Part shown: in pieces, positions 7,641 to 11,073 of the stretch
Layout: every line of letters begins with the position of its first letter
How positions within the stretch are numbered: the first letter of the stretch is position 1
Origin: Krasilnikoviella flava
GTDB taxonomy: Bacteria > Actinomycetota > Actinomycetes > Actinomycetales > Cellulomonadaceae
Direction: 5' to 3'
Length of the DNA stretch: 64,000 bases
NCBI RefSeq assembly: GCF_900167525.1
Contig: NZ_FUZQ01000008.1
Coordinates: forward strand, 248,001 to 312,000
Made by a program: the position numbers and the translations under genes
Notes under the pieces: model-generated
Seen by the model: the letters and a program-made list of their open reading frames with translations, nothing else
Told to the model about the DNA's origin: nothing
Database searches by the model: none

Positions 7641-7644
<4 letters not shown>
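6634..7644 (+). CDS. livG: Branched-chain amino acid ABC ATPase LivG
   Basis: The 336-residue ATPase carries Walker A GPNGAGKT at 95-102, the signature SLSGGQRK near 209-216, Walker B MIMLDEP at 230-236 and the switch histidine in FVEHDMHAV. The family is normally about 255 residues; the surplus is a 60-residue Ala/Val/Asp-rich N-terminal extension, probably disordered. The start overlaps the end of livM by 11 bases. A second ATG four codons downstream is possible, but none of the candidates removes the extension because the open frame is continuous and Ala-rich up to the ABC core. The insertion FWLSWLPFTWR after the Q-loop is typical of LivG rather than LivF. It pairs with LivF to energise the LivHM pore. 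Confidence 0.92.
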
Positions 7645-8426
<782 letters not shown>

Positions 8427-8438
8427 CACCTTTCCGCC

Positions 8439-8490
8439 GAGGTAGTCCGAGCCCCCGCGAGGTAGTTGAACTCCCGGCGAGGTAGTTCGG
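8439..8490 (-). repeat. Left cluster of GAGGTAGT repeats, 20-bp period
   Basis: Three copies of GAGGTAGT begin at 8439, 8459 and 8479, exactly 20 bases apart. They are the reverse complement of the ACTACCTC repeats at 9577-9696, so the two clusters face each other across the DUF559-type pseudogene. The core followed by TT and its complement can form a palindrome, but here the copies within a cluster all point the same way. They lie between livF and its apparent terminator. Confidence 0.85.
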
Positions 8491-8513
8491 CGGGAGAGGG
8501 CAGGGGCGCAGAA

Positions 8514-8547
8514 CGACGGCGGCCGCTCACCAGAGCGGTCGCCGTCG
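8514..8547 (+). terminator. Hairpin terminator after livHMGF
   Basis: A 15-bp stem with a single G-T wobble and a four-base ACCA loop lies 88 bases after the livF stop and 32 bases before the end of the convergent DUF559-type gene. There is no long T run, as is common in high-GC actinobacteria. It could serve both converging transcripts. Confidence 0.7.
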
Positions 8548-8578
8548 TCGTGGGGTGAGTCGGTCGCGGCTCACGCCG

Positions 8579-9466
8579 TCAGGCCGAGCAGAGCACGACG
8601 TCGCGCGGCAAGGTACGCGCGACGACGGTCCATCCGGCAGCCTCGAGCGCCTCCTGTCGAGCGGACTCGGTCTGACGCACCGCCTCGGGATCATCGTCGT
8701 ACTTGACCGCGCCGTCGAACTCCACCGCGAGTCGGACGCCTTCCCAGCCGAGGTCGACGTAGTAGGTGCCGCGCACGGTCGCCACCTCGAGCTGGCACTC
8801 TGCCCGTGGGAGGCCCACGTCCGCGGCTGCGAGCCTGGTCACTGTCTCCCCCGGCGAGGCCGAGCGCGGGTCGGACAGGTCAAGGATCTCCCGCGCCTGC
8901 ACGACACCCCTCTTGCCGCGAGACGCGGACACCAGACGCGAGACCTCCTCCGGGTCCGCGCCGAGCCGGAACAGCGAGTCGCACGCGACGAGCGCGCCGT
9001 CACGCGGAAGCGTGCGGATGCATCGACGAGAGTTCGCGCGAGGGACGTCACGGGTACACCGCGGACGTCCGCCCGATCCTGCTGCGGCATCGGCGTGTGA
9101 TGACGTCGCACCAGCGGCTCGTTCTCCTCGTCCACGTGGGGGTTCCACTCGCGCATCACGTGCACGAGCTGCGGGGTTCGGTACGTCCATGCACCATGCA
9201 GCACCGCGGCGGTCTCGTGACTGAACCACAGCGGCGCCCCTGTGCCTTCGGCCACCTCGCGCACCAACCCGAGGATCGCGTCCTCGTGAGAGGGGCCGGA
9301 TGGCGACGTCGCCGCCGCCGAGGGCGAGCTCGAGCGCGTCCGGCACGAGAGGCGGGTGCGCGGCGTCGGCCGACCGCATCCCACGCAACGGCGAGCCGGG
9401 CGTGTTCATCGTGTCGAGGATCCTGGCGATGCGCCGGATCGCGGGGAGATGTGCAGCTTCTCTCAT
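8579..9466 (-). pseudogene. Frameshifted DUF559 / AbiEi-antitoxin-like protein
   Basis: The protein can only be read by changing frame twice. Residues from MREAAHLP (ATG at 9464-9466) to GDVAIRP are in one frame; from SHEDAILG through FSHETAAVLHGAW, VHVMREWNPHVDEE and VTSLARTLVDASAR they are in a second; from LPRDGALVACDSLF to the end they are again in the first. The first shift falls in the run of four C at 9293-9296, the second near 9006-9020. The reconstructed order matches a family common in actinobacteria: a winged-helix/AbiEi-like N-terminal part and a C-terminal Vsr-like DUF559 domain with the EFDGAVKY motif. The function of this family is not established; links to type IV toxin-antitoxin systems or DNA repair are only by annotation. 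The C-terminus ends early after GWTVVARTL, so a third shift is possible. Two compensating shifts may be real decay or assembly errors. Confidence 0.75.
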
Positions 9467-9576
9467 GGGACGACCGTCTCGCGCTGATCGTGCCGATACA
9501 CCCTGCGGATCCGGCATCTGTGGAGGAGCCCGACTGGGGGCAGGCTCCGAGGCTCAGGAATTCGCGGCGCCGTCCT

Positions 9577-9696
9577 CGAACTACCTCGGCGAGGTCCGGA
9601 CTACTTCGCCGGCACCTGAACTACCTCGCGGCGCTTTGAACTACCTCGCGGCGCTGCGAACTACCTCGGCGCGGTCCGGACCACCTCGGCACGACG
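9577..9696 (+). repeat. Right cluster of six ACTACCTC repeats, 20-bp period
   Basis: Six units of 20 bases begin at 9577, 9597, 9617, 9637, 9657 and 9677. Each starts with a form of CGAACTACCTC; units 3 and 4 are identical except for the last base, and units 1 and 5 as well as 2 and 6 resemble each other, which suggests an 80-bp higher order. Inverted copies lie at 8439-8490. The stretch from 9467 to 9783 holds no gene: it consists of these repeats and the terminator of livK. Confidence 0.88.
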
Positions 9697-9737
9697 ACGG
9701 CGGCCCGTGTGCTCGGGTGAGCACACGGGCCGCCGTC
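9696..9737 (-). terminator. Strong hairpin terminator after livK
   Basis: A perfect 19-bp stem closes a four-base GGGT loop and lies 47 bases downstream of the livK stop. It directly abuts the last 20-bp repeat unit. The stem is symmetric, so it could also stop transcription coming from the left. Confidence 0.8.
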
Positions 9738-9783: not shown

Positions 9784-11073
9784 TCACTCCTCGATCTTGC
9801 CCTCGATCTGACGCTCGAAGGTGTAGGTGTTGTCGGCGCCGTACTTGTAGATGCCGATGAAGGCGGACGTCGGGTCGTTCGACTCGTTGAGCGGCCCGAT
9901 GCCGGACTTGCCGACGTAGTGGATCTCGTCGCCCGCCTCGAGCGCCTTGACGCCCTCCTCGAAGGTCTTCACCTCGGTGCCACCCTCTGCGCCGGAGACG
10001 GCGCGGATGTTCTGCGAGATGGTCGCGCCGTCCGTCGCCTCGCCCTTCACCGCGGCCAGCGCGGCGAGGACCGTGGCGTCGTACGACTCGGCGGAGTAGG
10101 AGAAGTCCTCGAGCTCGCCGCTCTCGTTCTCGGAGTACCAGGTCGTGAGCTGGTCACGGAAGGCCTCGTCCGCCTGCGCGCCGGGCAGCGTGCCCTGCAC
10201 CCCCTCGAGGGTGCCCGGGTCGAAGTCCTCGCCGTAGTTGGAGAGGTTCCCGTCGACGAAGTACGTGGTGCCGTTGAAGTCCCAGCCCTGCGACACGAGC
10301 TCGTTGACGATCGCGGTGGTCTCCTCGAACGCGACGATCGAGATCGCGTCGGGCTTCTGCGCGAGCAGGTCGGTCACCTGGGCGCCGAAGTTGGTCTCGC
10401 CCGGTGCGAACTCGTGACCCTCGCCGTTGCCGCCGTAGACCGCCTCGCAGCCGCCGGCCTCGAGGGCCTCCTGGATGTAGTCGCGCAGGCCGTTGCCGTA
10501 GGCCTCGTTCTGCACGAGGAAGCCCACCTTGCAGTGCCCGTCGCCCATGATGAGGTCGGCGTGCGCCGGCCCCTGGACGGTGTCCGGCGGTGCGGTGCGG
10601 GCGAAGAACTCTCCGTACCCCGACAGGTCCGCCGCCGTGTTCGCGGGCGAGATCTGCATGACGCTGGCCTCGGCGAACTGGTCGACGACACCGAGGGACA
10701 CGGCCGACGACGCCGCGCCGATCGCCACGGAAACGCCCTTGCCGATGAGGTCCGTCGCCGTGCTGCTCGCCACCGAGAGGTCGGTGCTGTCGCCGGAGTC
10801 GCCCCACTCGACGGTCACGTCGTTGCCGAGGACTCCGCCGGCGGCGTTGATGTCGTCGATCGCCAGGCCGACGCCGGCGATCTCGGGCGGGCCGAGGAAG
10901 GCGAGCGTGCCGGTGACCGGCAGGATCGTGCCGATCTTCAGCGGCTCGGACGAGCCGCCACCGCCCTCGGTGCTGTCGCCGCTTCCGTCGTCGGACGAGG
11001 CGCACGCCGTGAGGCCCAGGCTGAGAACTGCCGCAAGGGCCAAGCCCTTGGCGGCCGTGGTGCGTCGGATCAT
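9784..11073 (-). CDS. livK: Branched-chain amino acid type substrate-binding lipoprotein
   Basis: The 429-residue protein opens with MIRRTT and a lipoprotein signal ending in LGLTACAS, whose Cys would be lipidated. A Ser/Gly/Glu linker follows and then a type I periplasmic-binding fold (Peripla_BP_6) beginning PLKIGTILPVTGTLAFLGPP. The motif VTVEWGDSGD and the block VMQISPANT are usual for Leu/Ile/Val-binding proteins. It is the probable receptor of LivHMGF even though it is convergent with that operon and separated from it by the DUF559-type pseudogene. The ATG at 11071-11073 has AAAGGGG six bases upstream; an in-frame longer reading has no such site. An upstream block resembling the livH operator suggests shared control. 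Confidence 0.88.
   Translation of the reverse strand: MIRRTTAAKGLALAAVLSLGLTACASSDDGSGDSTEGGGGSSEPLKIGTILPVTGTLAFLGPPEIAGVGLAIDDINAAGGVLGNDVTVEWGDSGDSTDLSVASSTATDLIGKGVSVAIGAASSAVSLGVVDQFAEASVMQISPANTAADLSGYGEFFARTAPPDTVQGPAHADLIMGDGHCKVGFLVQNEAYGNGLRDYIQEALEAGGCEAVYGGNGEGHEFAPGETNFGAQVTDLLAQKPDAISIVAFEETTAIVNELVSQGWDFNGTTYFVDGNLSNYGEDFDPGTLEGVQGTLPGAQADEAFRDQLTTWYSENESGELEDFSYSAESYDATVLAALAAVKGEATDGATISQNIRAVSGAEGGTEVKTFEEGVKALEAGDEIHYVGKSGIGPLNESNDPTSAFIGIYKYGADNTYTFERQIEGKIEE

Follow-up and report, generated by a model that had tools for sequence, protein, structure and literature searches.

REPIN/RAYT systems consist of a resident gene flanked by inverted repeats whose kin are dispersed between genes as high-copy hairpin doublets (PMC3116915, PMC3733652). 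The locus described here resembles these systems (REPtrons, and also TIRtrons) in combining a repeat-flanked resident gene with dispersed, high-copy repeats that form hairpins. It differs from them in that the enzyme is predicted to be an AbiEi-Vsr-like nuclease and not a Y1/HUH tyrosine transposase, in that the arms consist of several units with a period of 20 to 22 bp, and in that GTAG occurs in GAGGTAGN but is missing from most of the families (GAGTCAG, GAGATAGAG, and GTGATCATG).

Three further comparators are the type IV toxin-antitoxin system AbiE, the I-Bth0305I and Vsr nucleases, and the MITEs of DDE transposons. In the case of AbiE, one study describes AbiEi as a repressor that binds inverted repeats, and gives the inverted repeats bound by AbiEi and Rv2827c as 23 bp long (PMC7319586). 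The protein here has a predicted AbiEi-like fold in its N-terminal and middle part, but unlike AbiEi it has a C-terminal nuclease part, its repeats lie genome-wide and not only at its own promoter, and no AbiEii (DUF1814) toxin gene adjoins it at the livF/livK loci, where both neighbors are liv genes. The homing endonuclease I-Bth0305I (EDxHD type) and Vsr appear to share the fold of its catalytic domain, whereas the dispersed elements here are non-coding arrays, and the gene sits at one site in the genus and was not seen copied with them. The MITEs are likewise short, non-coding inverted-repeat elements in many copies, the gene-bearing relative being a feature of the present case, but they lack the multi-unit, phased arms of variable number found here, and no target-site duplication was noticed here on a non-systematic reading of sites. 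To our knowledge, no role has been assigned to relatives of this gene, and no paper on this gene-repeat pairing was found in the accessible portion of the open-licence literature, which holds few preprints and leaves most subscription journals outside. Neither its enzyme class nor its repeat form fits any family compared, and under a view that treats all gene-bound dispersed palindromes as one kind it would be a variant.

The livF/livK locus in the window

The window, by which we mean the whole 64-kb stretch of DNA analyzed, contains two arrays of short repeats that face each other across a gene with broken frames (Table 1). The initial annotation had described facing clusters with a 20-bp phase around this gene, and both are present, with every step exactly 20 bp; its copy numbers hold as well, the three left copies being exact and the six right units exact in four cases, with one mismatch each in the units at 9600 and 9680. 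The two arrays match each other in inverted orientation (81% over 54 nt), and GAGGTAGT occurs 10 times in the window against 0.43 expected from shuffled sequence, at least 10 copies being reached in 0 of 100 shuffles. Its copies at 245, 22841, and 22955, outside the clusters, are singles without a phased partner. The accompanying argument that a 20-bp step would place all copies on one face of the helix is weak, because two turns of B-DNA take about 21 bp and thus more than 20, and because duplication of units fits a strict step equally well; in addition, other gene families use 22 bp.

Table 1. Coordinates in the window of the arrays, the gene between them, and the neighboring features
Feature	Position	Strand	Description
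livF	7641..8426	+	Left neighbor, convergent with the gene; synteny in relatives
Left array	8439..8486	+	Three exact GAGGTAGT at 8439, 8459, 8479; 20-bp period; facing the gene
Terminator-like inverted repeat	8513..8548		Just inside the left array; 16-nt arms, 94% complementary
AbiEi/DUF559(MTES_1575)-like gene, broken	8618..9466 (outer limits approximate)	-	Three overlapping pieces in different frames, about 8618-9028, 8878-9300, and 9257-9466, homologous to the intact I. halotolerans protein
Right array	9580..9687	-	Six ACTACCTC units at 9580, 9600, 9620, 9640, 9660, 9680; 20-bp period; facing the gene
Terminator-like inverted repeat	9696..9737		Just outside the right array; 19-nt arms, 100% complementary
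livK	9784..11073	-	Right neighbor; synteny in relatives

The description of a decayed DUF559-type gene between livF and livK is also borne out, by the broken frames, by the three homologous pieces, and by Pfam matches that are weak and under the curated cut-offs (MTES_1575 REase, 2.8e-5; DUF559, 0.0017; AbiEi_1, 0.042). Assembly error may be the cause of the frame breaks, and in the strain of the window the gene looks to have decayed with the arrays still there. The DUF559 profile (PF04480) gave no match at E 0.001 in the window's own genome, and an intact relative was therefore used as the query.

Outside the window, 33 stretches around array places in the same genome (G000) were sampled and gave 38 array groups, 19 of them with both facing arms and 19 with a single arm under a strict criterion. 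The gap between the arms of the 19 facing pairs is 4 to 47 bp, most often 10 bp (nine pairs) or 4 bp (four pairs), and the pair in the window is the exception, with the gene lying between arms 1093 bp apart. In the related genome G005, facing GAGGTAGT arms (L070:5874-6538) have a NUDIX gene (Pfam 6.2e-11) between them, and a family gene is therefore not the only possible content. Folded as single-stranded DNA, five arrays of G000 and one of G010 gave long hairpins, with z values of -6.8 to -13.7. When grouped by eye, the centers of arrays recur in unlinked elements, one type similar to GGTCTGGTCC at seven loci and another similar to TCGTGACATCGCGTCACGA at three, which favors copying of whole elements.

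Matching of gene and motif across the genus and in other families

The genus set comprises 18 genomes, including G000, and the genus is taken to be Isoptericola because the closest of the 17 loci found with LivK come from it. By protein search together with synteny checks, 14 of the 18 have the gene or what remains of it between livF and livK, and in these it was seen at that one site only. I. halotolerans has an intact frame of 377 codons at the same site between facing arms, I. halalbus and two MAGs carry the gene with arms made mainly of GAGGTAGC, and at the livF/livK site of I. luteus, I. variabilis JZ7, and Puerhibacterium puerhi both the gene and these arms are missing. The gene-less livF/livK gap of I. 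variabilis JZ7 (L088:11388-11497) and that of P. puerhi (L090) contain two adjacent TGTCAGAAC-type palindromes, which could be a trace of another family's element. Apart from G000, the gene is also broken in G011, and it is shortened in G005 and reduced to a remnant in G010.

The motif beside the gene is GAGGTAGT in G000, G005, G007, G010 (few units), and G011 (mixed with GAGGTAGC), GAGGTAGC in G001, G006, G014, and G015, GAGGTAGG in G016 and G017, GAGTCAGC in G009 and G012, and GAGTCAGG in G002. The dispersed repeats follow the same division. Phased GAGGTAGT pairs number 148 in G000 (searched as GAGGTAGT-N12-GAGGTAGT over 4.85 Mb; 80 forward and 68 reverse), 156 in G005, 145 in G007, 12 in G010, and 30 in G011, with 3 in G012 and none in the 12 other genomes. 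Phased GAGGTAGS pairs number 284 in G001, 181 in G006, 24 in G014, 115 in G015, 127 in G016, and 176 in G017, with minor numbers in G007 (19), G011 (9), G000 (1), and G010 (1), and none in the eight others; among the matches listed, the last base of these dispersed units is C in G014 and G in G016 and the first part of G017. Phased GAGTCAGS pairs number 49 in G002, 230 in G009, and 267 in G012, with none in the 15 others, and the reversed patterns run as controls gave 0 in all three surveys of the 18 genomes. Some of the GAGTCAG arrays in G009 and G012 stand back to back, reverse then forward and about 2 bp apart (for example G009:C1:798648-798765).

The dispersed class (GAGGTAGT, GAGGTAGS, or GAGTCAGS) is the class beside the gene in all 14 gene-holding genomes, which are not independent events, because motifs are common to related species. 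In G003, G004, G008, and G013, whose best relatives are only 37 to 44% identical, none of the three classes occurs, absence of the gene being read there from the protein search, so that a livF/livK remnant may have gone unseen. The motif has thus changed in step at one syntenic gene and throughout the genome, and sequence comparison shows the switch from species to species at this single gene locus. On the protein tree, with 16 of the 25 proteins labeled, the six classes take five motif changes, which is the minimum, against an average of 11.1 in shuffles. A view of the genus based on GAGGTAGT only, which finds arrays in 6 of 18 genomes, was set aside, the variant motifs at livF/livK showing that it reflects a limit of the pattern. 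The initial annotation had named abundance of the repeats far from DUF559 genes as evidence against the pairing; nearly all genomic copies do lie away from the gene, and the pairing stands nonetheless, because these copies are found in gene-holding genomes and belong to the same motif class. It proves broader than was claimed, with flank matches in other families as well.

Other genes of the family carry other motifs, namely GAGATAGAG with a 22-bp period, GAGATCGA, GAGGTCGTACC, GAAGTAGTACC, and GTTCGGCAGTTCC, and at the paralogs the motif is often a whole palindrome on either side of the gene. A second broken family gene of G000 (L239; G000:C4:81000-85200) is flanked by GAGATAGAG arrays and is the single gene of that genome seen with such arms. 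The comparison of flanks within the genus covered 89 loci (28 search loci, 60 taken by position, and the window itself), of which 87 could be evaluated; 13 weaker search matches (E 1.3e-6 to 9.8e-4) were left out, one of them being the G010 remnant already in L077. Against 2000 random controls, the left flank matches the right above the 99% point at 62 of the 87 loci and above the 95% point at 76, and these matches are non-independent because orthologs are included. The gene family is present in 51 of 59 sampled genomes of the order, four of which belong to the genus, and at the loci of other families (26 new loci, 25 of them evaluated against 600 swapped-flank controls) 17 lie above the 99% point and 19 above the 95% point. 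The remaining 25 loci of the genus and 8 of the other families fall below the 99% control point. Three of the genomes from other families have GTGATCATG in the flanks of the gene and dispersed 408, 97, and 47 times, against 0 copies in 16 and one copy in one of 17 other genomes, this pattern having been chosen after the flanks were seen. The gene is flanked by its own repeat type, as in REPIN/RAYT systems, and its repeats share with theirs a high copy number and dispersal as extragenic palindromes. Searching plasmids with the protein turned up a single weak record, and a scan of viral contigs (IMG/VR) gave one phased GAGGTAGT pair in each of five contigs (L274-L278), which may be chance.

The predicted protein and turnover of the arrays

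The AlphaFold2 model of the protein has a pLDDT of 93.3 and a pTM of 0.91. Residues 42-226 resemble the AbiEi antitoxin 6y8q (Z 9.7, rmsd 5.8, 163 residues), 1zel (Z 8.3), and also nucleotidyltransferase-fold toxins such as MenT1 (Z 9.2), and residues 231-339 resemble the catalytic domain of the homing endonuclease I-Bth0305I, 3r3p (Z 9.7, rmsd 2.6, 97 of 97 residues), as well as 3hrl (Z 8.7) and Vsr 1vsr (Z 7.2). Foldseek alone gave E 3.8e-4 for 6y8q and 0.072 for 3r3p. Among solved structures, profile searching found weak matches only, to 3hrl (0.022) and to ribosomal S20 chains that are probably chance. In the PADLOC defense library the AbiEi model matches at 8.2e-16, Pfam at E 0.01 finds MTES_1575 in 19, AbiEi_4 in 12, and DUF559 in 9 of 36 aligned relatives, and NCBIfam gave no match for the four family members tried. 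Z values in this middling range are common, and it is because the matches cover separate domains and agree with PADLOC and Pfam that the reading as two domains is backed. In the 36 relatives, which were chosen by hand from the retrieved loci because their frames are open, D190, E234, D265, E276, D278, G279, K282, and R301 are invariant. The protein is predicted to combine an AbiEi-like part with a nuclease that resembles Vsr and homing endonucleases and has invariant acidic residues.

To follow single sites, 18 array sites of G000 were traced into G005, G010, and G011, with site classes read by eye, and because the sites were picked for GAGGTAGT in G000, the turnover rates hold for GAGGTAGT-bearing G000 sites only. 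In G005, 17 sites were traced and 15 could be evaluated (among them one that runs to a contig end and one with a weak left flank), of which eight have GAGGTAGT arrays, four have GAGATAGAG units, and three have neither or remnants. In G010, 11 of 17 sites were evaluable, with five GAGATAGAG arrays, one GAGGTAGT pair, and five that hold remnants, another hairpin, or neither. The eight targets in G011 were mostly uninformative. Usually no more than 10 bp separate the array from the end of flank homology. Some orthologous sites, of 37 and 40 bp, are nearly empty, and it was at the traced sites that the non-systematic reading for target-site duplications was made. The motif GAGATAGAG has 0 copies in 371 kb of G000 (stretches and window); 59 kb of G005 contain 13 copies, and 73 kb of G010 contain 23. 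Eight sites have GAGGTAGT arrays in G000 and G005 alike, and there the ninth base of the unit is T in 32, C in 16, and G in 8 units of G000, against A in 42, G in 10, and C in 6 units of G005. Units are thus alike within a genome and different between genomes at one site, which indicates concerted evolution.

Explanations and their meaning

Sequence comparison shows that the gene is paired with a repeat and its motif class agrees with that dispersed through the genome, array centers are common to unlinked sites, and arrays of different motifs occupy one site in related genomes; from this we infer that arrays are mobilized. We consider it probable that the locus is one of a family of REPIN/RAYT-like gene-repeat systems run by an unrelated AbiEi-Vsr-like nuclease. 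In such a system the resident gene would encode a protein whose AbiEi-like part binds DNA and whose other part is a nuclease similar to Vsr and homing endonucleases, with facing repeats of its own motif on either side and the same motif scattered as non-coding, hairpin-forming arrays. The AbiEi-like part may read and bind the inverted units, and the 23-bp sites reported for AbiEi and Rv2827c (PMC7319586) are close in length to the 20- to 22-bp units here. Facing units would place two nuclease parts at one hairpin or cruciform, the nuclease would cut or nick the array or its hairpin, and repair would copy another array into the broken site. Repair of breaks from another array would explain why arrays spread, why they replace one another, and why they stay alike within a genome. 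The suggestions of the initial annotation that the repeats are a target of the Vsr-like protein, and that gene and repeats form a mobile-element-like module, gain indirect support from the gene-motif match across genomes and from the predicted fold. Several findings count against this model: G000 and G005 are rich in arrays although their gene is broken or shortened, a state that arrays may outlive; facing arms can enclose another gene, as with the NUDIX gene; the 14 genomes are not independent; some loci of the genus and of other families fall below the 99% control point; and no target-site duplication was noticed on the non-systematic reading. The wider proposal, an actinomycete-wide class of mobile repeats in which AbiEi-Vsr-like nucleases drive non-coding palindromic arrays by cut-and-repair copying, is put forward tentatively.

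The protein might instead be a sequence-specific DNA-binding factor with a regulatory or architectural role, for which the arrays are working sites at the ends of genes (in termination, insulation, or topology), those next to the gene serve as its own operator, and motif and protein co-evolve as do a regulator and its sites. An AbiEi-like part would suit such a factor, AbiEi being described as a repressor with inverted repeats as binding sites (PMC7319586), as would the strong hairpins and the placement of the arrays, since of 40 array groups, with the window counted in, 34 are clear of any called gene and 14 sit between convergent genes (54 of 239 gaps in the background), counts that are indicative only because the crude gene caller missed livF and livK in the window. 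This explanation covers binding and gene-end placement but neither the nuclease residues that are invariant in all 36 relatives nor the turnover, in which traced sites lose arrays or swap motif; the copy number, from 0 to 284 pairs per genome, and the common centers, which point to copying of whole elements, also speak against it, and we judge it unlikely.

A role in defense, in which the nuclease attacks incoming DNA and the arrays of the host serve as self-marks, decoys, or controls of activity, would agree with the match to the PADLOC AbiEi models and with the predicted kinship of the nuclease part to Vsr and restriction-like folds. However, at the loci checked the neighbors are livF and livK, with no toxin or modification partner adjoining, and high-turnover arrays at gene ends are left unexplained, which makes such a role quite improbable. 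Less credible still is that some other activity spreads the arrays and that the gene merely lies between them, sharing their history by descent. The NUDIX gene between facing arms in G005 fits such a passenger, and gene and motif are both common to related species, so that descent alone gives part of the match, but pairings with unrelated motifs are seen again at many paralogs and in other families, three dispersed motif classes switch along with one syntenic gene, and a search for transposases of the Y1 family gave none in the 18 genomes. Finally, an ordinary REP/RAYT system with an overlooked RAYT gene would account for extragenic palindromes in high copy and for the GTAG within GAGGTAGT, GTAG being the described REP tag (PMC3733652), but the profile of the RAYT-type (HUH) Y1 transposase (Y1_Tnp, PF01797) matched in 0 of 18 genus genomes against 5 of 14 control genomes in the same search, and GTAG is absent from the GAGTCAG, GAGATAGAG, and GTGATCATG families, so that for this genus a classical system is scarcely conceivable and would require a diverged RAYT that the profile missed.

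Genes of this family are common, and the link between each gene and a matching, genome-wide set of palindromes offers them both a candidate function and a substrate open to direct test. Should the copying model be true, it would represent a second, independently evolved way in which one resident gene sustains small repeats in a bacterial genome, which is the problem that REPIN/RAYT raised. Under the wider proposal of an actinomycete-wide class, a switch of motif by the nuclease would rewrite tens to hundreds of intergenic arrays per genome in concert, and rival nucleases would overwrite one another's arrays at the same sites. The natural pairs of nuclease and motif are also a possible source from which a DNA-recognition code might be read.
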